A stretch of DNA of 35,025 bases. It comes from a virus. A program made the translations under genes and the position numbers. The notes beneath the pieces are model-generated. The model saw only the letters and a list, made by a program, of their open reading frames with translations, made no database searches and was not told the origin of the DNA. The stretch is from IMG/VR virus record IMGVR_UViG_3300025168_000288, positions 1 through 35,025 of that record. The stretch is one strand, 5' to 3'. Within the stretch, counting starts at the first letter, position 1; each line of letters opens with the position of its first letter. Shown here in pieces: positions 10,916 to 24,108 of this stretch.

Positions 10916-12397
10916 ATGGAAGGCGACATCAATGAATTTATCCACGATATGGATAAACAGATGTCTGCAAAGTCTTTTCGATACTTCTTTGAGGACATAT
11001 TAGGATTTGATTATTCGCACCACCATGAAAGTTGGGACAAAGGATTAGCAGAAAACAAATATTACTGTGTTAAAGCGAGTCGTGACCACGGTAAGTCTGT
11101 ATTCTTTATGTCCTATGCTCTATGGATAGCGGCATTTAAGCCCGGAACACACGTCATGATTTTCTCTCACTCTTTGGAACAAACATTGGAACACATGAGA
11201 TTTATTCGCAATAACATTGAATCCACACCAATCCTTCGTGAACTTATTCCAGAAGGAAGGCCGTGGAGAAAAACATACTTCGAGTTTGAGAACGGAAGCC
11301 GAATGATGGCTAAGTCCGTTGGTGGTGGTACTCGTGGTTTCCACCCTCACGTTGTAGTATGCGACGATATTCTATGGGGTACAACAGGTACAGAATTACA
11401 GCGAGCCGCTGATTGGTTCTATGGTGTTCTTCTCCCTGTTCTGCACCACACAGGTCGTATGATGATTGTCGGTACGCCGTTTTCATACAACGATTTGTAC
11501 GCTGAATTAGAACAAAGAGATGCCTTTACTGTCGAGACATATCCGGCAATAGATGCCGCTGGAGAAGCCCTTTGGCCTGAACGATGGAATCTTGAAACAC
11601 TCGACCAACGTAGACTTTCAATGCCAGCGATACAATTTTCTCGTGAGTATCTTTGTGAGCCTATTCACGACGTTGCGAGTATGTTCCCTAACGATATTCT
11701 CGACAAAGCCCGTGATAAAGACCTTGTATTACTCGACAGGGCTGATACTGAATTTGATGAGAATGGTAATCCCGCAGGTGTATTCGGTCAACACTTCATA
11801 GGATGGGACACAGCAATTGCTTCGGATAAGAACGCTGATTATACAGCAATGATTGTTATGCGTACTTTACCAGATGACCATACCAAACAAATTGTTGGTG
11901 TTATACATGAAAAAGGATTAGGTGGTGCGGCTCAAAAGAAACACATTTTGATGCTTAACAATCGGTTTCAACCTGATTTGATTGAACTTGAAGGTAACAA
12001 CTTCCAGCGTATGTTCGCCGCTGAACTGCAAGATATGCGTAGCGATATACCGATTAAAACATTTATGACTACTCGACAAAGAAAAGAGAGTATATTCATG
12101 TCTTTACTTATGGCATTTGAACAAGGGCAGATTAGAACACCGTATGGTGATGAACGAAGCCGTACTTTCACACATAAATTAGAACAAGAACTAAACCGAT
12201 TCGGAATGCAAAAGAACGGTAAGTTAGAATCTGTAGGTACTCACGATGACTTGGCAATGGCTTTGGCTTTGGCTAATTGGGGTACAAAAGAGTTCAAGGG
12301 AAGCATTGTTTCACTCGATGATTACATGCCCGGATTTGGTGATTGGCTTGACAATACTGTTGGTGGTAAGAACACAGGCGGGTGGATTATACCATGA
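10916..12397 (+). CDS. terL: Terminase large subunit (TerL)
   Basis: The 493-residue DNA-packaging motor has both expected domains. In the ATPase domain, Walker A is ASRDHGKS (54-61), Walker B is VVVCDDI (146-152) and the coupling motif is IVGTPF. In the nuclease domain, FIGWDTA gives the first acidic residue, LIELEGNN the second and THDDLAMALA the third, as in RNase H-like terminase nucleases. It drives ATP-powered DNA translocation through the portal and cuts the DNA. The start at ATG 10916 has no close ribosome binding site; GGAAGTGAT lies 16 bases or more upstream. An in-frame ATA or ATT nearer that site is possible. The stop overlaps the next gene as ATGA. Confidence 0.95.
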   Translation: MEGDINEFIHDMDKQMSAKSFRYFFEDILGFDYSHHHESWDKGLAENKYYCVKASRDHGKSVFFMSYALWIAAFKPGTHVMIFSHSLEQTLEHMRFIRNNIESTPILRELIPEGRPWRKTYFEFENGSRMMAKSVGGGTRGFHPHVVVCDDILWGTTGTELQRAADWFYGVLLPVLHHTGRMMIVGTPFSYNDLYAELEQRDAFTVETYPAIDAAGEALWPERWNLETLDQRRLSMPAIQFSREYLCEPIHDVASMFPNDILDKARDKDLVLLDRADTEFDENGNPAGVFGQHFIGWDTAIASDKNADYTAMIVMRTLPDDHTKQIVGVIHEKGLGGAAQKKHILMLNNRFQPDLIELEGNNFQRMFAAELQDMRSDIPIKTFMTTRQRKESIFMSLLMAFEQGQIRTPYGDERSRTFTHKLEQELNRFGMQKNGKLESVGTHDDLAMALALANWGTKEFKGSIVSLDDYMPGFGDWLDNTVGGKNTGGWIIP

Positions 12398-13332: not shown

Positions 13333-13833
13333 ATGACTCGATGTACTTGCCATGATACACTCATTGTAAAAAATTTGAACCGATGGTTCAAAGAAAAATG
13401 GGTTGACGTATCACGTAAAAACAAGGACGGTAAGCACCCTCCTTGTGGAAGAAGTAAGGCAAGTAAATCAAGCAAAGGTTACCCAAAGTGTAGACCAAGT
13501 GTGAAAGTTTCAAGTAAAACTCCAAAGACAAGCGGCTCTATGAGTAGCGGTCAAAAACAAGCGGCTACAAAACGCAAGCGAGCAAAAAAGCAAGGCGTTG
13601 GTGGCAAACCTACGGTGGTGAAAGCAATGAAAGATAAAAAAGACATGAAAGACATGAAAGGAAAAAAAGGCATGGTAATGGTAATTGCCATTGGTGCTAA
13701 ACCAAAGAAAGTCGGCGTTAAAAAGGCTGATGACACAAAGAAAATGGGTAGAATGGAACAATGTTACACTTGTGGTAATCTTTTTCCAAATTATCAAATG
13801 TTAGACCAACATCAACAACAAATGAATCATTGA
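13333..13833 (+). CDS. Basic virus protein with DUF5872-like region and C2H2 zinc finger
   Basis: The 166-residue protein starts immediately after the previous stop. The N-terminal part (LNRWFKEKWVDVSRKNKDGK, then PPCGRSKASK and YPKCRPS) matches a family I recall as DUF5872, found in phages and large algal viruses. The middle is extremely Lys-rich with KDMKDMKGKK repeats. The C-terminus is a canonical classical zinc finger: C-x2-C, x3-F, x5-L, x2-H, x5-H (CYTCGNLFPNYQMLDQH, last His at the end). Such a basic, zinc-finger protein should bind DNA or RNA. Whether it is packaged or regulatory cannot be told. Confidence 0.75.
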   Translation: MTRCTCHDTLIVKNLNRWFKEKWVDVSRKNKDGKHPPCGRSKASKSSKGYPKCRPSVKVSSKTPKTSGSMSSGQKQAATKRKRAKKQGVGGKPTVVKAMKDKKDMKDMKGKKGMVMVIAIGAKPKKVGVKKADDTKKMGRMEQCYTCGNLFPNYQMLDQHQQQMNH

Positions 13834-13873
13834 TGTAAGAACAATTAAATGAGTGGTCAACGGAGAGGTCAAT

Positions 13874-15175
13874 ATGTGGGGGAGTGCATTTGTCGGGGAT
13901 GAGTATGATTTCCCCGTTTTAGGAAACGATGAGTTTTCTAATTTACTTGTCAAAAGTATATCACAGCACCCACAATTTCAATATGATAATCTACCTATTG
14001 AACCAGTAAGTTCATCTTTAGTTGTTAAAGAGGAATTAAAATCATATTCATTTGCTAAGAATGGAGATGGTTGGCTCGAATCCACATGGGGAAAGAGTGC
14101 TGACCAAATTATACGTGAATGTCGTAAAGCCCGTAGAAACGATAAATCCAATAGAGATATGTATGATTCTATGATTAAAGATGTTAGAACATTAAAATCA
14201 ATGGAAGTAGAAGCCACTATTACCAATTTGTCTTGGTCTGATGGTCTTTCTGATGTCATAAAGAATATGGGTATAAACGATAAAGCGTTAAAATCACTAC
14301 GAAAGTTTGGAGAATCACGTTCAATAAGTTTACAAAAAGCCTGTCAATTATTCTTGAAAGCAAATACTGTATTGAATATGCTTAATGAAAAAGTTGACTG
14401 GAATGTTGATGACCAATTAGAATGGGTCAATGCAAATCAATTACAAAAAGACGCAAGAAAAATGTGGAGAAATGTATTGAAGCAAGCAGAAAAATTACCT
14501 GTTAATGATGTTAAAGCATTAGAATTTGCATCTGATGTATTGGAAAAAGAAGGTCCTTTACAATCTCGTGAACTCGTAAGACGTGGACTGGGTACATTAG
14601 AAAAGAACATAACTCCTCAAAAGATGGCATCTTTACTCAAAACATACGGGGAAGAATTTGATATTTACAAAGCCCCGTCGAGAGGGAATTACATTAAAAT
14701 TGGTACGCATGGGTTAATTATCAAAGACATATGGGGGTACATGGCCGGTTCACTTGATTCAGATGGAAGCATCTTTATTTCACAACGTGGCGACCCTCGT
14801 GTAACCTTCGTTGCCAGTGGAAATATGGGTAAGCAGTTGTGTGAAGATTTGCAAAAGGCTGTTGGCTGTGGTCGATTAGTTACTGACCAAACAGTAGCAA
14901 AGAATACACAAAAAACTATTCATCGGCTCATATTTGCATCGAAGGATGATATTCGCCATGTTCTCAAACATTCCATGCCTCATATGCGTCTAAAAGACTT
15001 GCAAGCAAAGGCTATGCTTGCTTATGTAGATGAAAAAGATAAGATGAGAAAGACTGAATTATATCAGTTAGTTACATTCAGTAATTGGAAAGACCATAAA
15101 AACAAAGCCGACTCTCTCTTGAACAAGTGGGGCGTTGATGCTGACACTATAGGCGCATTTGCGGAGGGATTGTAA
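13874..15175 (+). CDS. Protein with winged helix and LAGLIDADG-like domain
   Basis: ATG 13874 follows GGAGAGG at 13862-13868; an in-frame GTG at 13853 is less supported. The product has about 433 residues. The first ~200 are unrecognised and charged. Residues ~215-280 look like a winged helix (EFASDVLEKEGPLQSRELVR, then a beta wing). The LAGLIDADG-like motif MAGSLDSDG lies at 290-298 and is followed by the usual strand-turn pattern (SIFISQR, RVTFVASGN), a helix, and GCGRLV. One motif is present, so a homodimer or a domesticated DNA-binding protein is likely. Both acidic positions of SLDSDG are kept. It is not inside another gene's frame, so it does not look like a free-standing homing-intron product. 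Its place between TerL and portal is unusual. Confidence 0.75.
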   Translation: MWGSAFVGDEYDFPVLGNDEFSNLLVKSISQHPQFQYDNLPIEPVSSSLVVKEELKSYSFAKNGDGWLESTWGKSADQIIRECRKARRNDKSNRDMYDSMIKDVRTLKSMEVEATITNLSWSDGLSDVIKNMGINDKALKSLRKFGESRSISLQKACQLFLKANTVLNMLNEKVDWNVDDQLEWVNANQLQKDARKMWRNVLKQAEKLPVNDVKALEFASDVLEKEGPLQSRELVRRGLGTLEKNITPQKMASLLKTYGEEFDIYKAPSRGNYIKIGTHGLIIKDIWGYMAGSLDSDGSIFISQRGDPRVTFVASGNMGKQLCEDLQKAVGCGRLVTDQTVAKNTQKTIHRLIFASKDDIRHVLKHSMPHMRLKDLQAKAMLAYVDEKDKMRKTELYQLVTFSNWKDHKNKADSLLNKWGVDADTIGAFAEGL

Positions 15176-15207
15176 TCGCAGAAGAAGATGGAAGAATATC
15201 ACGATTT

Positions 15208-16983
15208 TTGTCGGCTTTAGGTCGGCCTTTCAAAAGAAAGGAAAGCCCAACTCCAACAATGCCACTTTGGTCAAGTGGTATTCAAGAACCTGTTATGGCT
15301 CAAGGTATTACTATACCTGCTCTTTTTGCTGTAAGTACTGAATCACTTATTCTTCGTACTGTACTTTCTAAATTACGACAAGAAATGTTTCGTCGTGGTT
15401 TTTATTGGGAAAAGAAGTTTACTGCAAAATGTACTCAATGTGATGAAGAATATCAAGAAGAAGTTGAAACTTGTAAATTATGCGGTGGTACAACTCGAAA
15501 ACCTGATATTGATGAAATCACTTATCCTAAGTGGTTACTAAAACAAGAAAACAGTATGGAACAATCATTCTTCCATCTTTTACATGAACTTGAAAGTGAT
15601 TTGAATATTGTAGATGATGGCTTCCTTGTATTAATAAAAGAATATTTTATTGACCCTGAAACGAAAGAAGTTCAGTTTTATCGTGTTAAAGAAATGATAC
15701 GAGGCGACCCTATCTTTATGCGAATCGTTGCTGATAAGCGTGGAGTACGTGGTGGACGTTACAAAATTTGTTTAGTGCATCGAGAAAATGTAAAGACACA
15801 TTCTGAAAGTGATAAATGTGAAATTTGTGGAAGTGAAATGCAAGATGTTCACTACGTGAATATGGCTGGAAGTGGTAAGACACAATACTTTGTTGAAGGG
15901 GAAGTACTGCACATTTCAAAATATAATCCATCGAAATTGTATGGTCGTTCTCCAGTTAACACAATGTGGAGACAAGCAATGACACTCACAGCAATGGATA
16001 ACTACATCTATACTGCTTACCAAAAGAGAAGAATTCCAAAGGGTATTATTTCTGTTACAACAGATAACTTAGAATCAATGAAGTCATTTTGGAAGGCAAC
16101 TGATGAAAAAATGGAACGTGACCCTCACTATATTCCTCGTGTTGGTATCGAATCTTCGAGTGGAAGAGGAGGGGTCAATTGGGTCAAATTTATGGACACA
16201 CTTGAAGAAATGCAATACATCGGTGTACGTGATGAAATACGAAATCGTATAGCCGCTTTCTATGGTGTATCGTCTATCTTTATGGTTGACAATGGTAAAT
16301 CAGGAGGTCTGAATAATGAAGGACTACAAATTCTTGTTACTAATCGTGCTGTAGAATTTGGTCAAAAAGTATACACAGAAATTCTCTTCCCAAGACTACT
16401 AAAGCAAATGAATGTTAGTGATTGGAAACTCACGCTCTATCCTAATGAAGAAGAAGATGAAATTACTCGACTTCGTAGAGATGAACAAGAACTTAACGTT
16501 GCACAAAGAATGGCACAATTAGGATTTGTACCTGACTTACTCGATGAGCCAGCAAATCGAGACATCCGTTTCACATATTCTAAACCACCACCAGCACCAG
16601 CACCACCTCCCGGTGGCGCACCACCCGGAGGAATGCCACCCGGTGGTGGAGGAATGCCACCTATGATGCCACCCGGTGGAATGCCACCCGGTGGAATGCC
16701 ACCACAGATGATGGGAAGAGGCGGAATGCCAATGCCACCACAGATGGGTGGAGGTATGCCAATGCCAATGTCAAGACAAGTTCCACCCGGTATGGGAATG
16801 CCTATGCAACCCGGAAGTGAAGGAATGGGAATGAGAAATCGTGGTCCTGTAGCACCACAAAGAAGAGGAACAATGGGAAGTGGTTCACCACTTTCAAGTG
16901 TTCAACAAAGAGGACCACCACCATCTCCTATGCAGAACGTTTCTAATACATTATTAGACGCTCGTAGACCAAGAGGCCGCTAA
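15208..16983 (+). CDS. Portal protein with two zinc-ribbon insertions
   Basis: Portals form the dodecameric ring for DNA entry and exit at one capsid vertex. This protein fits by location and by its core: YGRSPVNTMWRQAMTL, then RRIPKGIIS, a long helical stem and the IAAFYGVSSIFM segment. Two Cys clusters are inserted: C75-x2-C78 with C89-x2-C92, and a C-x-x-H with C-x2-C about 120 residues later. The C-terminal ~120 residues are Pro/Gly/Met repeats (PPGGMPPGGGGMPP). The nearest standard start is TTG 15208, but it has no ribosome binding site. GGAGGG at 15163-15168 points instead to ATC 15175, which overlaps the previous stop like the TAATG junctions elsewhere and would add 11 residues. Confidence 0.85.
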   Translation: MSALGRPFKRKESPTPTMPLWSSGIQEPVMAQGITIPALFAVSTESLILRTVLSKLRQEMFRRGFYWEKKFTAKCTQCDEEYQEEVETCKLCGGTTRKPDIDEITYPKWLLKQENSMEQSFFHLLHELESDLNIVDDGFLVLIKEYFIDPETKEVQFYRVKEMIRGDPIFMRIVADKRGVRGGRYKICLVHRENVKTHSESDKCEICGSEMQDVHYVNMAGSGKTQYFVEGEVLHISKYNPSKLYGRSPVNTMWRQAMTLTAMDNYIYTAYQKRRIPKGIISVTTDNLESMKSFWKATDEKMERDPHYIPRVGIESSSGRGGVNWVKFMDTLEEMQYIGVRDEIRNRIAAFYGVSSIFMVDNGKSGGLNNEGLQILVTNRAVEFGQKVYTEILFPRLLKQMNVSDWKLTLYPNEEEDEITRLRRDEQELNVAQRMAQLGFVPDLLDEPANRDIRFTYSKPPPAPAPPPGGAPPGGMPPGGGGMPPMMPPGGMPPGGMPPQMMGRGGMPMPPQMGGGMPMPMSRQVPPGMGMPMQPGSEGMGMRNRGPVAPQRRGTMGSGSPLSSVQQRGPPPSPMQNVSNTLLDARRPRGR

Positions 16984-17028: not shown

Positions 17029-17382
17029 ATGGACTTACTAAAAATGCACCCAATGGCAAGAAAAATGGAACAAGCGCAAAAAGCATTTGCTACTGCGTTA
17101 GAGCAGGGCGACGGAAGTTTAGCCAAGCAACATTTGACAGAAGTACAGAAACTAAGTGATTTCCTTTTGGAAGATTTGCAATCAGAAATTTTCAAGGCTG
17201 AAAACCTTGCACGTACACCCGGTGCAAAAGACCTCTACGTTGGTGGAGTAGCACCATATACATTCCAAAAAGAAGAAGGTCGAACCGAATTAACAGGACA
17301 TCGACTAAGTGGAACTGTATCAGCAGGAAAGCGACGTGCAGAATTTAATCCATCACGAGGAACACTTGGTCGTAGGGTGTGA
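17029..17382 (+). CDS. Small helical protein downstream of portal
   Basis: The start ATG 17029 follows GAGGGA. About 117 residues are predicted. The first 60 are helical (MARKMEQAQKAFATALEQG, then LTEVQKLSDFLLEDLQSEI), compatible with a coiled coil. The C-terminus is Gly/Arg-rich and probably extended (GTVSAGKRRAEFNPSRG). No known family. It opens a group of four small genes between portal and the giant protein, and a role in head assembly is only inferred from position. Confidence 0.65.
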   Translation: MDLLKMHPMARKMEQAQKAFATALEQGDGSLAKQHLTEVQKLSDFLLEDLQSEIFKAENLARTPGAKDLYVGGVAPYTFQKEEGRTELTGHRLSGTVSAGKRRAEFNPSRGTLGRRV

Positions 17383-18169: not shown

Positions 18170-18343
18170 ATGTCTAATGTGCGTGTAATCAAAGCAAATG
18201 ACCACGCATCATTGAGAGAGCATAGTGAACGTGTTGCACCTCTATTGTGTCGAACCTGTGGCGGTTCATCTGAATCAGGATGTAAACTCCCTATGGCACA
18301 AGGAATGGATATACACGCCTGTCCTAAATTTACACCGCTATGA
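18170..18343 (+). CDS. Small zinc-ribbon-like protein, 57 residues
   Basis: ATG 18170 follows TGTGAT; the frame is open upstream but that part overlaps the previous gene. The product has a basic helix and then C-x2-C (LCRTCGGSS), with two more Cys (GCKLP and HACPKF), which can form one zinc site. No family is recognised. The stop TGA overlaps the possible start of the giant gene. Confidence 0.5.
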   Translation: MSNVRVIKANDHASLREHSERVAPLLCRTCGGSSESGCKLPMAQGMDIHACPKFTPL

Positions 18344-18357
18344 AAGGCGGTGTTAAA

Positions 18358-21300
18358 ATGACATATACTCAATTAGACCACGCTACATACGATTTGTTAA
18401 AATCGTTAGACGATGGTTTAGACCTTGAACGAAATGCGGCTGAATACATCATCGCATGGAACTCTATGGAAAAATCCCCCCGTGAACCCATTCTCGGTTC
18501 TCTTCTTGTATTAGCAGAAGATGTTATTGCAAAGAAAGAAAAAGAAGAAGATTTACCTAATTTAGAATATGACCCCGGTGAAGATACTGGTGAAGGACTT
18601 TTGCACAACATAGAAGATACTCAAGAAGATTTAACGAATCACATATGGCTCGATGGATTACAAGGCGGAAAGAATTTATCTGACCATTTTTCAACATGGC
18701 CTGTGTATCGACCCAATCCAGCAAATCACCCATATAGAGAACATCATTTTCCATTCCATCCAGCAAATCACCCCGCACTAAGACTTCATGCTACAACAGG
18801 AAAGCCTCATTGGGTTGAAATGCTAAGAGCGCACGTTTTTGGCGGATATATGGATGAAGAAGCAAAGATGGAAAAAGAATACATAAAACATCTTAAAGAT
18901 AATAAACACCCTTTAGCGTTTGGATTTAAACCTCAAGGTTCAAAATCAAAGAGTATGAATTTATTAGGTACTCCAGAAGTATTTGGTACGATTGGTACAC
19001 ACCAGAAAGATTTCTACGAACGAGATTATCATAGATGGAAGAAATCAAATGAAGCATCTAACATGAAGGACAGTCTTGTGGAAGAAGGAAGAAGTTCGCA
19101 AGACATACAAAAAATACTTCGTGAAGCCCATTTCGACCAAAAGGCAAATGAGTGGCTTACAGAAGATAGTGTTTTGGACGATGATTACAATGTTCATCCA
19201 ACACCATTAGGTCATCATGGTTTTAAATTAGGTTTAGAATGGTTTTCACCAGAAGAAAGAACCGCCATACGACAACAAATAGATGAACATGGTTTAGACA
19301 ATACGAGCACTATAGAATTACCAAGTGGACAAAAAATTCCTTCTTCTCGTCTTACATACAATGCTCTTATGCGTAAGACTCCTGAAATGAATTGGGCTGT
19401 ACGTAGCCCAAGAATGATGGGAAGAAATACCCATCTTCGATTAGAAGATAACGATACTGATTACGAAGCAGGTGAAGGTGGTCGATTCCTACAAAGTGCA
19501 TTAGGAAATGCTGTACACTTACCATATGAAGGAAAAGATGAATCTATCGCTGATTTTATTTTAGATGAAATAAATAATCTGTATGCAGATGATATGAAAG
19601 ATGCTGGTAAAGGGTATAAAAGAAAGTTAAAGTATTTACCAAGACTAAATTTACACAAAAACAATTCTCCAGAAGATTTGACTTGGGAGGGTCTAAAAGA
19701 CGCTGAAAAAAGTCAATTTGGAAAACGAACTCAAAAAATAGACCATTCAAGAATACCAATTGAAGATATACTTTTCTTGGCTGGATTTGACCCTAAAACA
19801 AGAGAACCTATTCAAAATCATGAATTACATGGGTCAATGGAAGGACCTATTGTTCCTTTAGAATGGATAGAGAATATGGAAGAACAGGCTTCAGGGCATA
19901 TGAATTTACAACAACAAGAGAAAGATATTCGTAAACATTTATCATTCCTAAAAGCGGCACATGGTCCTCATCCATCGGAAGATAAACCCTCGTATTGGCG
20001 TACAAGTGAAGATGGAGATTATACCTACGGACCCGGAAACTTTTGGAATAAATTGTATCAGGGTGCTGGTGGTGCAGGTATGTCTTTATCTACATACAAT
20101 GAAATTCTACACGCATTAACTGCTAACGAAGATGGTAATTCCTTACTTGGTGAAGTACATGAATCAGGTACTATGGGGGAAAAGAAAACGATAGTACCTA
20201 ATCAAAACAATTTATCTCTTGCCGCACATTTTATGCCTGAACGCTCTCAAGAACAAGGTCATTTTGATGCAAACACGAAGAAATATGTTTATCATAATGC
20301 ACCTAAACTTATTCAAAACATACTTTCACCTGTAAATGTTTCAAGACCAATACCGAGTGGAACATCACATAGTGGATTTAGAGAAGGTGCTACGACTAAA
20401 AATAATTTTACTGAACATAAATCATCACTTTCACCACAGTATGAGTATATGATACGCCATATGACAGATAAAGACAGACAAATATTTGGTTCACATCTAA
20501 AACCGTTTGATAGTACGTTAACAAGAAATCCATTTTTACATCACGCTACTTATCGTGGTTATGTACCATACAGTAGTGATAAACAGATATATGATAACGC
20601 CGCAGATACTCACAAAAGAATAATGAGATTTGGTTACCAAAACCATTTGAATACACCAAGTGAAAAGTCTGTTACATCGTTTAATGATTTACTAAGAGGT
20701 GAAGGAGAAGTAAGCGGAGGAGAAACACCAGACGATATGTTTTCTTTTTTGAATTGGGGAGTATCAAAACCTTCATACAATAAAGTAAAAGATTATTTGA
20801 ACACAAGTAAACGAGCATTTGGACTTCGTTTACTCACGAACATAACAAAGGTTATTGGTTCTCAAAAACCAAGAGATATTTTAGAATATTTACAAGCAGA
20901 AGATTTTACAGATTTACGTGAAAAAATGGGTTTCGATGCTGTAAATGATACAACCCCAATAGGAGATATTGTTGAAGGATTATTAGATGATATTCATCTT
21001 GATATAAAAGACCGACCTCAATCATACAAACATAGAAAACCTACAATGGAAGATGCAGTTCGTACAGCAATAAGTTTTGGTGGTGCATTACCGGCTATTG
21101 ATAAAGAGCAAAAATTACAAGATAAATCTGATGAATTACTTCAAGAATTTAATGAAGCAGATGAAATAGATAAACCACTCATAAGAGAAAAACTAACAGA
21201 TGTAACTTCAAAACTTACTGCAATGCAACAAAAAGCAATAGAAGGCGTACAAGGGAAAGGAACGACTCATTGGAAAATAGATTCCAAGAGAGAAGAAGAG

Positions 21301-24108
21301 ATGGCAAAGGCGCACAGAATTTTAGTTGCTAAAGTAGCACCAATGATAAAGGAAAAAATGGAAGAAGCAGACCCAACTGCTTTTGACCCGAATGACCCAC
21401 AGAAATTTATTGATAACAATGCAAGGATGTTTCGTGATGCTCAACGATATATTTCCAACGTTTCTCATTCTGTACACGGTTTAACAACAGCAGGGTATGG
21501 GGTTGATTTTACAGATGTAGAAACAAAACCTGCTGAAAATAAAGGCTTTCATCAAAATGTTGCTTCACATCTACAAGAACATGGTTTTCAAATTACAGGT
21601 AACATGAGCGTAGACGAAGTTCTTGAAGCGTTAGCAATAGAAAAAACACCACAGTCGAAAGAACATGCAAGAGAACTTATTGAGCGTTCTAACACTTTGA
21701 ATCAACCATTACACGCAAGTACTGTTAATCAACTCATTTCTCATGGGGGTATAACAGATGTACATGGGACAGACATTTCTCATATGCATGATGAATCGTT
21801 AGGAGAGAAAGAAGGAAGTGAACTTAATCCTGAACAGAAGTTTGCAGTTATGGTACAAACATTAGGCTATCACGATGCAGTACAAGAATTGCATAAAGAA
21901 ATAAATTCAGATAAAGAATACAAAAAAGCACAGTATATCCATGCACTTCCTCGTAGATTTAAGCAACTTATGAACTCAAACACTCAATTTGGTTCTGCCA
22001 TTGATGCTAATGGATTAGAATACATCAATAACGATGTATACGATGCACAAGGAAAGAAAAAAGGTTCTGCTGGAAAGGGAAGACCACAGATTACTGCTGA
22101 AACAAGAAACAATCTTGATTCTATTATTCATTACAATCCTTCTGTACAACAAGAAGAAAGACCAGAAGAACCTACTACTTCAATAGTTACAAGAGCAGGA
22201 ATGACACAAATTCCTGTCGGTTCTTCTAATCCAAACAACGGAAGTATCGTAGATTCGTTTGATGCTGGCGCACACCATAGTGGTTGGTTAGCAAATCCTT
22301 CTGTTGGTTGTGAATTTACAGCCGATGGTCAAATTAAGGCAGGACAATATGTAGAACAAGGATTGTATCACTCGGTTCCACACGAACTTACAGATATGGT
22401 TCATGGGAAAGAACTACGTGAACAAGTATGGAACAATGCACCACCCGCACAAGAATCTCGACTTCCTATAAGTGGTATTGACCCTACAACGTTTATTGCT
22501 ATGAATGAGGACCCAAGTAAATTAGCATTGAGTGAAATGAGTGATTACATAGAAGGGTTACTCAATCCTGATATTTTACTCATGAAAGAAGATAAACCTG
22601 AATGGAATCCTCTAATACGCCCAATGCACCGTATTTTTGAACTAAGTGATTTAGAACATCTACGTGGATTTAGTGGTTCGTGGGTTGTATCAAAATGGTA
22701 CGACGGAAAGCGAGTTATGATAATTAAAAATGGTGAAGAGATAACTGCTCTCAATGAATCAGGTAAAAAAGTAGGTCTGAAAAAGGCTCATAGAGAAGCA
22801 TTACAAAAAGTCAACGACAATAATTTTGCAATAGATACTATTCTTGGCGATGAAGATTTGAATGTTATTGACATTCTAAATTATGATAATACTGATATTA
22901 CAGATATGCAAGTCTTTGAACGAATCAAAGTCATACGTTCACAATTTGAAAGTCATGAGAATGTTATTGTTCCGGGTCCTCACGATACAAAGGTAACAGA
23001 TAGTGAAGGACTCAAAGAAAGTGTAGAACGAATGCAAAAAGAACATGAGAATATTTTGCTAAGAGATTCTAAGTCCACATATATGCGTGGAGAATTTAGA
23101 CACCCAAAGTGGGTATTGTATAGACCAACTCGTGATTACAATTTCATTGTTCTTGATAGAAGAGGCAATGGTCCTTACACATATCAATTAGGTGCGGGTC
23201 CTCTTATTGACGATGGTGGATTGGCTAATCGAGCGATTGAACACAAGGGTGAGTACTACATGGATGTAGGTACAGCACGTAATCAAGATAAAGCGTACAA
23301 AGTTGGAGATGTAGTGCGAGTATCAGTAAGTGGAGTTACAAAGAAAACTCGTGGGCAAAGAAATGTTTTCACCGTACAAGTAAAACAAATAGAAGGTGTA
23401 GGTGAAGGTGAAGGACCTGCAAGTGCTGAATCATTAGACTTGTTGACAAAATCTTATTCTGCAATCAACATTCCACACAACATAGAATACGATGAAGAAG
23501 GCTTCCGTGTTGTTCTCAAAGATATTGATACTGTAACATATCAAGTAGATGAAGTAGGGGATATGTGGTATCTCCATTCCCCTCAAGGGAATATGGATTT
23601 ACTATTCAAAAATCAGTATGCAGTAACATTAGCGGAGAGCCTTCAACCGTTTTGGGGTTCTGTAGCACCACTCATGTTATCAGGAGTATTAAAATCAGAA
23701 GAAGAGTTTAGTTCTCCGCCTAAAAAACATACACCAAAAGAAATGGAAGAAGGTTCTGTAGGTATTTTGGAAGAAGATGATGAAAATAGATTACTCAAAC
23801 CAGAAGATAAGAAAAAGGCTATTGAAGTTATTCTAAGAACACTTGATACACTTACAAAAGAAAAATTGACATGGACTGGACCAAGAGGTTTGGGAATTGA
23901 CGTAGGTACACCTACGGAATCACCAAGTGGACCTACAAAAATCACAGAAGAAGAAAACCTTCCAGATTTTGATGGAAGAACTGATGAAGAAAAAGATAAA
24001 GAATTTAAAAAACCAAAGCACATGAAGCCTGTTGATGTTTCAACAGAAGATGGTGAAAACCTTCATTTAGACTATGAAAATGATACTCCAGTACTTTCAA
24101 AGGTATAA
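18358..24108 (+). CDS. Giant protein with C-terminal ligase-like adenylation and OB domains
   Basis: I chose ATG 18358 because of GGCGGTG just upstream; ATG 18340 is an in-frame alternative that overlaps the previous stop. The product has 1,916 residues. Residues 1-~1390 are unrecognised, largely soluble, with His-rich patches and helices. From ~1400 the chain follows an ATP-dependent DNA ligase. Motif I is KWYDGKR with Lys1446, then a NVIDILNYDN motif IIIa, and then an OB fold (about 1592-1680). Other catalytic positions are altered: motif III AIDTIL (1491-1496) lacks the usual Glu, motif IV is ENILLR (1564-1569) instead of EG-x-x-x-K, and motif V is KWVLYR (1584-1589) without its Lys pair. 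I infer a nucleic-acid-binding pseudo-ligase or a diverged nucleotidyltransferase. It lies between portal and protease, so it may be a virion protein. The last 120 residues are acidic. Confidence 0.85.
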   Translation: MTYTQLDHATYDLLKSLDDGLDLERNAAEYIIAWNSMEKSPREPILGSLLVLAEDVIAKKEKEEDLPNLEYDPGEDTGEGLLHNIEDTQEDLTNHIWLDGLQGGKNLSDHFSTWPVYRPNPANHPYREHHFPFHPANHPALRLHATTGKPHWVEMLRAHVFGGYMDEEAKMEKEYIKHLKDNKHPLAFGFKPQGSKSKSMNLLGTPEVFGTIGTHQKDFYERDYHRWKKSNEASNMKDSLVEEGRSSQDIQKILREAHFDQKANEWLTEDSVLDDDYNVHPTPLGHHGFKLGLEWFSPEERTAIRQQIDEHGLDNTSTIELPSGQKIPSSRLTYNALMRKTPEMNWAVRSPRMMGRNTHLRLEDNDTDYEAGEGGRFLQSALGNAVHLPYEGKDESIADFILDEINNLYADDMKDAGKGYKRKLKYLPRLNLHKNNSPEDLTWEGLKDAEKSQFGKRTQKIDHSRIPIEDILFLAGFDPKTREPIQNHELHGSMEGPIVPLEWIENMEEQASGHMNLQQQEKDIRKHLSFLKAAHGPHPSEDKPSYWRTSEDGDYTYGPGNFWNKLYQGAGGAGMSLSTYNEILHALTANEDGNSLLGEVHESGTMGEKKTIVPNQNNLSLAAHFMPERSQEQGHFDANTKKYVYHNAPKLIQNILSPVNVSRPIPSGTSHSGFREGATTKNNFTEHKSSLSPQYEYMIRHMTDKDRQIFGSHLKPFDSTLTRNPFLHHATYRGYVPYSSDKQIYDNAADTHKRIMRFGYQNHLNTPSEKSVTSFNDLLRGEGEVSGGETPDDMFSFLNWGVSKPSYNKVKDYLNTSKRAFGLRLLTNITKVIGSQKPRDILEYLQAEDFTDLREKMGFDAVNDTTPIGDIVEGLLDDIHLDIKDRPQSYKHRKPTMEDAVRTAISFGGALPAIDKEQKLQDKSDELLQEFNEADEIDKPLIREKLTDVTSKLTAMQQKAIEGVQGKGTTHWKIDSKREEEMAKAHRILVAKVAPMIKEKMEEADPTAFDPNDPQKFIDNNARMFRDAQRYISNVSHSVHGLTTAGYGVDFTDVETKPAENKGFHQNVASHLQEHGFQITGNMSVDEVLEALAIEKTPQSKEHARELIERSNTLNQPLHASTVNQLISHGGITDVHGTDISHMHDESLGEKEGSELNPEQKFAVMVQTLGYHDAVQELHKEINSDKEYKKAQYIHALPRRFKQLMNSNTQFGSAIDANGLEYINNDVYDAQGKKKGSAGKGRPQITAETRNNLDSIIHYNPSVQQEERPEEPTTSIVTRAGMTQIPVGSSNPNNGSIVDSFDAGAHHSGWLANPSVGCEFTADGQIKAGQYVEQGLYHSVPHELTDMVHGKELREQVWNNAPPAQESRLPISGIDPTTFIAMNEDPSKLALSEMSDYIEGLLNPDILLMKEDKPEWNPLIRPMHRIFELSDLEHLRGFSGSWVVSKWYDGKRVMIIKNGEEITALNESGKKVGLKKAHREALQKVNDNNFAIDTILGDEDLNVIDILNYDNTDITDMQVFERIKVIRSQFESHENVIVPGPHDTKVTDSEGLKESVERMQKEHENILLRDSKSTYMRGEFRHPKWVLYRPTRDYNFIVLDRRGNGPYTYQLGAGPLIDDGGLANRAIEHKGEYYMDVGTARNQDKAYKVGDVVRVSVSGVTKKTRGQRNVFTVQVKQIEGVGEGEGPASAESLDLLTKSYSAINIPHNIEYDEEGFRVVLKDIDTVTYQVDEVGDMWYLHSPQGNMDLLFKNQYAVTLAESLQPFWGSVAPLMLSGVLKSEEEFSSPPKKHTPKEMEEGSVGILEEDDENRLLKPEDKKKAIEVILRTLDTLTKEKLTWTGPRGLGIDVGTPTESPSGPTKITEEENLPDFDGRTDEEKDKEFKKPKHMKPVDVSTEDGENLHLDYENDTPVLSKV

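Follow-up and report, generated by a model that had tools for sequence, protein, structure and literature searches.

Background

LAGLIDADG domains of the I-CreI type are sequence-specific. Domesticated LAGLIDADG proteins on the one hand, and packaging nucleases on the other, are already known separately. The closest domesticated relative in architecture is WhiA (DUF199), in which a LAGLIDADG domain comes first and a helix-turn-helix (HTH) domain last, and in which the catalytic residues are described as lost (PMC3781837). Homing genes often adjoin terminase genes; whether nuclease genes in such places are selfish or belong to the packaging machine is presented as a matter of debate in PMC10448857, where domestication as genome-end processing is also suggested. 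The HNH protein gp74 of phage HK97, encoded beside the terminase genes and proposed to be part of the packaging module, is reported to stimulate cos cleavage (PMC9410871). A LAGLIDADG-like pattern has in addition been claimed in a terminase context for pUL56 of HCMV (PMC6950143).

Here we describe a gene, named LAG, that would join the two subjects. Among the papers searched, none was found that joins LAGLIDADG domestication with a packaging nuclease, judging by titles and abstract openings, and none that links LAGLIDADG to magroviruses. The gene lies in a window of 35,025 nucleotides that spans positions 1 to 35,025 of the IMG/VR virus record IMGVR_UViG_3300025168_000288. Its portal protein is about 29% identical to the portals of haloarchaeal viruses of the Druskaviridae, a family that the portal tree in PMC8651126 places among marine archaeal viruses including magroviruses. 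Because of this portal resemblance and the published tree, we call the window magrovirus-like, that is, a putative marine archaeal tailed virus. Its relatives in IMG/VR are records of 50-110 kb. Searches of the window for tRNAs and Rfam families matched nothing, as did a tblastn search of a phage collection with LAG.

Gene context of LAG

The genes and signals around LAG are as follows.

10916..12397, plus strand: terminase large subunit (TerL); Pfam Terminase_6C/6N, PHROG 38
13333..13833, plus strand: DUF5872 protein (Pfam), within the variable TerL-LAG stretch, outside the fixed trio
13862..13868, plus strand: Shine-Dalgarno-like GGAGAGG for LAG, read from the sequence
13874..15175, plus strand: LAG, winged-helix/LAGLIDADG gene of 433 aa, ATG start, conserved MWGS start
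15163..15168, plus strand: GGAGGG in the 3' end of LAG, Shine-Dalgarno-like for the portal gene, read from the sequence
15208..16983, plus strand: portal protein, open reading frame as listed; Pfam Phage_portal, PHROG 18178; homology puts the start near 15175

The first-pass annotation had placed the gene between TerL and portal, and the Pfam and PHROGs matches of both neighbours agree with this. We set the LAG start at the ATG at 13874, where the family-wide MWGS start falls; the GTG at 13853 is an alternative readable start of the same frame. In the stretch 15169-15210, the window and its closest relatives (L002-L004) have ATC where other portals start with ATG, right after the LAG stop, and the portal gene of this lineage possibly uses an unusual start codon, for example ATC or ATT. 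The DUF5872 gene was present in 26/47 magrovirus-like representatives and in 0/20 deep ones. Further downstream, between the portal and prohead protease genes, a protein of 1922 aa (18340-24108) has a weak match to ATP-dependent DNA ligase over residues 1467-1606.

Domain architecture and active site

Searched as a single sequence, LAG gave only faint signals (Pfam LAGLIDADG_3 at E 0.13, under the family cut-off, and a weak match to I-CreI at E 0.036). A profile built from 36 relatives matched I-CreI, I-CvuI and I-MsoI over residues 282-390, with best E-values of about 1e-7 to 1e-4; the top row of that search, a designed beta-propeller, was rejected as a spurious chance motif match. The AlphaFold2 model of LAG had a mean pLDDT of 83 and a pTM of 0.49, and structure comparison aligned it to I-MsoI, I-CvuI and I-CreI with Z of 13-14.7, the best being I-MsoI (rmsd 2.0 over 126 residues at 20% identity). 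The domain is of the single-motif, I-CreI/I-MsoI type. A predicted fold without a LAGLIDADG core was the outcome that the first-pass annotation had named as speaking against its reading; the core is present, and the profile match and predicted fold also substantiate its proposal of a winged helix joined to a LAGLIDADG domain. The domain features are listed below.

14483..14713, plus strand: winged-helix domain, residues ~204-280; AlphaFold2 model, VIA Z 8.8/8.5 to winged-helix domains
14717..15139, plus strand: LAGLIDADG domain, residues 282-422; profile match, VIA Z 14.7 to I-MsoI
14741..14767, plus strand: MAGSLDSDG motif, residues 290-298; translation and profile alignment, Asp 297 equivalent to I-CreI Asp 20
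14993..14995, plus strand: codon of Lys 374, aligned to I-CreI Lys 98 by profile alignment; Lys in 178/178 proteins

The motif thus lies at the residues reported for it earlier, as the LAG translation confirms. Modelled separately, residues 58-282 reached a pLDDT of 92 and a pTM of 0.80. The winged-helix matches of this model were moderate, and a Foldseek search with it gave no match at E<=0.001. For the helical part (residues 58-203) there was no convincing structural match, the winged helix filling the VIA list. Modelling was poor for the first 57 residues, most of which are absent from some relatives. The best PHROGs match, PHROG 5046, was shared by all 36 LAG members and covers only the LAGLIDADG part; given this, its label "HNH endonuclease" may be wrong.

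Residue conservation was counted over 180 unique LAG proteins, from which L272 and L275, cut by contig ends, were dropped, leaving 178 that could be read; L102, split by a frameshift, is not included in A3. All 178/178 proteins keep the Asp that corresponds to I-CreI Asp 20, a residue also named in PDB entry titles. The same holds for Lys 374, whose counterpart we take to be number 98 of I-CreI, and for Arg351. His350 is replaced by Asn in 27 of the 178 proteins and by Gln in 2. In one lineage (L223, L227, L232) the motif is degenerate, reading AADFLESDG, and the C-terminus is shorter, so that the LAG found there is possibly a decaying or altered nuclease; we count it against a packaging function, though both the Asp and the Lys remain.

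Compared with I-CreI, I-MsoI and I-CvuI, LAG shares the fold of residues 282-422, the motif and the catalytic Asp and Lys. It differs in that the domain sits behind a helical and winged-helix part and is not mobile, being fixed in a packaging cassette. The comparison with WhiA made in the first-pass annotation holds for the idea of domestication only: both proteins join a LAGLIDADG fold to a domain of HTH type, whereas in LAG the order of the domains, as modelled, is reversed and the catalytic residues are kept.

Conservation of place and inheritance

We fetched three sets of loci (n=80 each) by portal or TerL similarity, without using LAG. With the window portal as query, LAG was directly upstream of the portal gene in 80/80 loci, and its stop codon overlapped the portal ATG by one base (TGATG or TAATG) in 77/80. 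A portal profile led by HCTV-5 gave LAG upstream of portal in 62/80 loci, all 62 of marine type; 59 of these abut the portal gene, while L204, L208 and L244 have a gap. The remaining 18 (L167-L184) lack LAG and are Druskaviridae or hypersaline-type relatives, several of them on short contigs. The third set was fetched with a TerL profile headed by a deep relative; in it LAG followed TerL in 79/80 loci, and at the sole exception the sequence stops 102 nt past terL. No empty site lacking LAG was found among marine relatives in the portal- and TerL-fetched sets.

The spacing within this arrangement varies between clades. Magrovirus-like genomes have insertions of 18-3115 nt between TerL and LAG, so that other genes can intervene. 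In the deep clade, no more than about 15 nt separate the end of TerL from the start of LAG, also at loci where other sequence lies between LAG and portal; for example, in L313-L315 and L319 the portal gene has moved away but LAG is still beside TerL. LAG was present in all 47 magrovirus-like and all 20 deep representatives, and no tested gene other than TerL, LAG and portal covers both clades fully or nearly so. A search of IMG/VR with LAG matched 366 stretches, the best 80 of which were kept. The gene is single-copy in 33/33 positive records; in G022 and G034 a second match falls on the N-terminal part of that one open reading frame. The sole relative from genome contigs, L166, is an 18,054-base contig of a Cytophagaceae metagenome-assembled genome. 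It is most likely a misbinned viral contig, and we rejected it as a sign of cellular origin or spread of LAG; the IMG/VR contig L209 is equally long.

Distances and trees of TerL, LAG and portal were compared over 67 of 69 chosen loci. TerL and LAG distances correlate at 0.94, and the LAG tree recovers 22/31 strong TerL splits, compared with at most 1 after name shuffles (n=200). In the magrovirus clade the agreement with TerL is looser for LAG (r 0.84) than for portal (0.96). From 22 chosen close pairs (3 lacking TerL and 1 with saturated LAG dS), the dN/dS of LAG was 0.01-0.105 over 21/22 pairs. The gene is under purifying selection and evolves like TerL and portal.

The first-pass annotation had offered two readings, a homing-like nuclease that targets relatives' packaging genes or a domesticated DNA-binding protein for packaging or regulation. 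The former did not survive: there is no marine empty site, the gene is single-copy and fixed in position, and its phylogeny is largely congruent with those of TerL and portal. LAG has the fold and the catalytic Asp and Lys of a homing endonuclease, and we saw neither the sporadic presence nor the several locations of one. From the latter reading, the packaging form gains support from the fixed TerL-LAG-portal order.

Relatives without LAG

Gene order in the Druskaviridae is HTH-HNH-TerL-(HNH)-portal. Homologs of the HTH gene before TerL were found in 12/22 LAG-negative and 0/224 LAG-positive loci by single-sequence phmmer, which may miss diverged HTHs in the latter. HNH homologs were found in 8/22 LAG-negative and 0/224 LAG-positive loci. 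An HNH nuclease gene occupies the slot between TerL and portal in HCTV-5, HVTV-2 and the LAG-negative records of L182 and L184, and both LAG-negative records tested had a PF01844 match at portal; among LAG-positive records, such a match at E<=0.001 occurred in 6/33, always about 40 kb or more from LAG. The LAG-negative loci missing the HNH gene have the order HTH-TerL-portal. Since HNH is inconstant in the LAG-negative group, the exchange of LAG and HNH in this slot is only partial, which counts against the packaging model. A search with the HCTV-5 TerL matched no LAG-positive locus at E<=0.001; for this reason it seems that the gene for the terminase was swapped along with that of its DNA-binding partner, the portal being kept.

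A candidate target site in terL

Two spots in terL showed strong conservation at silent positions, CGTGGTNNNCACC (11333-11345, before Walker B) and CGTGACCAC (11081-11089, Walker A region). We list the former as a weak candidate.

11333..11345, plus strand: CGTGGTTTCCACC in terL, before Walker B; more conserved as DNA than the protein requires, weak candidate target

The motif at 11333 is nearly unique within whole records. Its column was 1 of 518 columns at 90% or more, with the TerL Arg written CGT in 48/49. After dereplication by TerL identity it drops to 25/27 and loses its rank as top column, and the deep clade is partly without it. Codon preference is a possible cause of the conservation, and we treat the motif as a lead only. 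At the 13-mer level, no shared noncoding site was found among 50 representative loci; the 13-mers common to most of these loci and the window are coding, where they could be placed in the window.

Possible roles of LAG

Because it lies beside the packaging genes in nearly all sampled marine archaeal viruses that have this packaging gene, and because its key residues are retained, LAG probably functions in packaging rather than as a selfish gene. We propose that in the tailed viruses of marine archaea, magroviruses and deeper relatives alike, LAG has been domesticated as a packaging subunit and is inherited vertically, and we judge this full model to be evenly balanced between right and wrong. 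LAG would be made and inherited together with TerL and portal. Its winged helix would probably recognise and bind viral DNA. With its one motif, the LAGLIDADG domain is expected to work as a homodimer, and the dimer probably nicks or cuts the site where packaging begins. The cut end would then be handed to TerL at the portal, and LAG would thereby do the work done elsewhere by the small terminase subunit (TerS), or by TerS and an HNH nuclease.

We infer the TerS-like part of this role mainly from distribution, since the occurrences of the HTH gene and LAG are complementary. Like TerS, LAG has a predicted DNA-binding domain of HTH type and is encoded beside TerL (79/80). It differs from TerS in having a nuclease fold and lying after TerL, and no TerS PHROGs match was found among 36 LAG members at E<=0.01, which speaks against the model. 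The gene after portal (17029-17382) also weighs against it, with a weak TerS match in 3/13 members (best E 0.0075); we rejected this gene as an alternative TerS, given the weakness of the match and its absence from the 20 deep loci. The ICTV figure legend for Aoguangviridae (PMC10768690), which lists a TerS not mapped to a gene here, is a further point against the model. As for the nuclease part, HK97 gp74 would be the closest precedent for nuclease-aided packaging by LAG. Both are encoded as neighbours of terminase genes. Their folds are unrelated, LAGLIDADG in LAG and HNH in gp74, and LAG is fixed in 80/80 and 79/80 loci. The likeness to HCMV pUL56 is confined to the proposal of LAGLIDADG in a terminase context; that proposal concerns a short pattern and not a fold match, and we neither show nor imply any kinship with LAG.

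Among the other explanations, it is improbable that LAG is a DNA-binding regulator, WhiA-like in effect, whose winged helix controls the late genes or its own operon while the nuclease fold is structural only. The winged helix, the precedent of WhiA and the position of LAG as first gene of a translationally coupled pair with portal are in keeping with such a role; the invariance of Asp and Lys, in contrast to their loss in WhiA, is not, and the position of LAG is tied to TerL and not to a regulatory region. We also consider it unlikely that LAG is a structure-selective packaging nuclease that debranches concatemers or trims their ends. The genetic link to packaging and the kept active site would suit this as well, as would the lack of a common noncoding 13-mer; the sequence specificity of I-CreI-type domains and the added winged helix, which suggests site recognition, point the other way. 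A role as scaffold or bridge between terminase and portal, with the LAGLIDADG fold as a protein-protein module only, would account for a gene always near TerL and portal and, alone, would not need an invariant metal-site Asp and active-site Lys; we regard it as quite unlikely. Finally, the idea that a homing endonuclease entered the terL-portal junction in the past, became fixed and is still homing, for which the fold, the catalytic residues and the habit of homing genes to adjoin terminases could be cited, is strongly disfavoured by the lack of marine empty sites, the single copy per record, the tree congruence and the overlap of the LAG stop with the portal start codon.

Conclusions

In the debate over nuclease genes beside terminases, LAG is a case in which fixed position and joint inheritance speak against a selfish gene and the residues of the active site are retained. 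This combination opens the idea of domestication to a direct test that needs a single protein and a single TerL. LAG is a candidate TerS for magroviruses, and it may take the role of TerS, of a packaging HNH nuclease, or of both. A more specific proposal, which we hold as tentative, is that a domesticated LAGLIDADG endonuclease replaced the small terminase and starts packaging in abundant marine archaeal viruses by one specific cut per genome, possibly at the terL motif before Walker B. If this is true, a virus lineage would owe the making of its genome ends to a former selfish gene.
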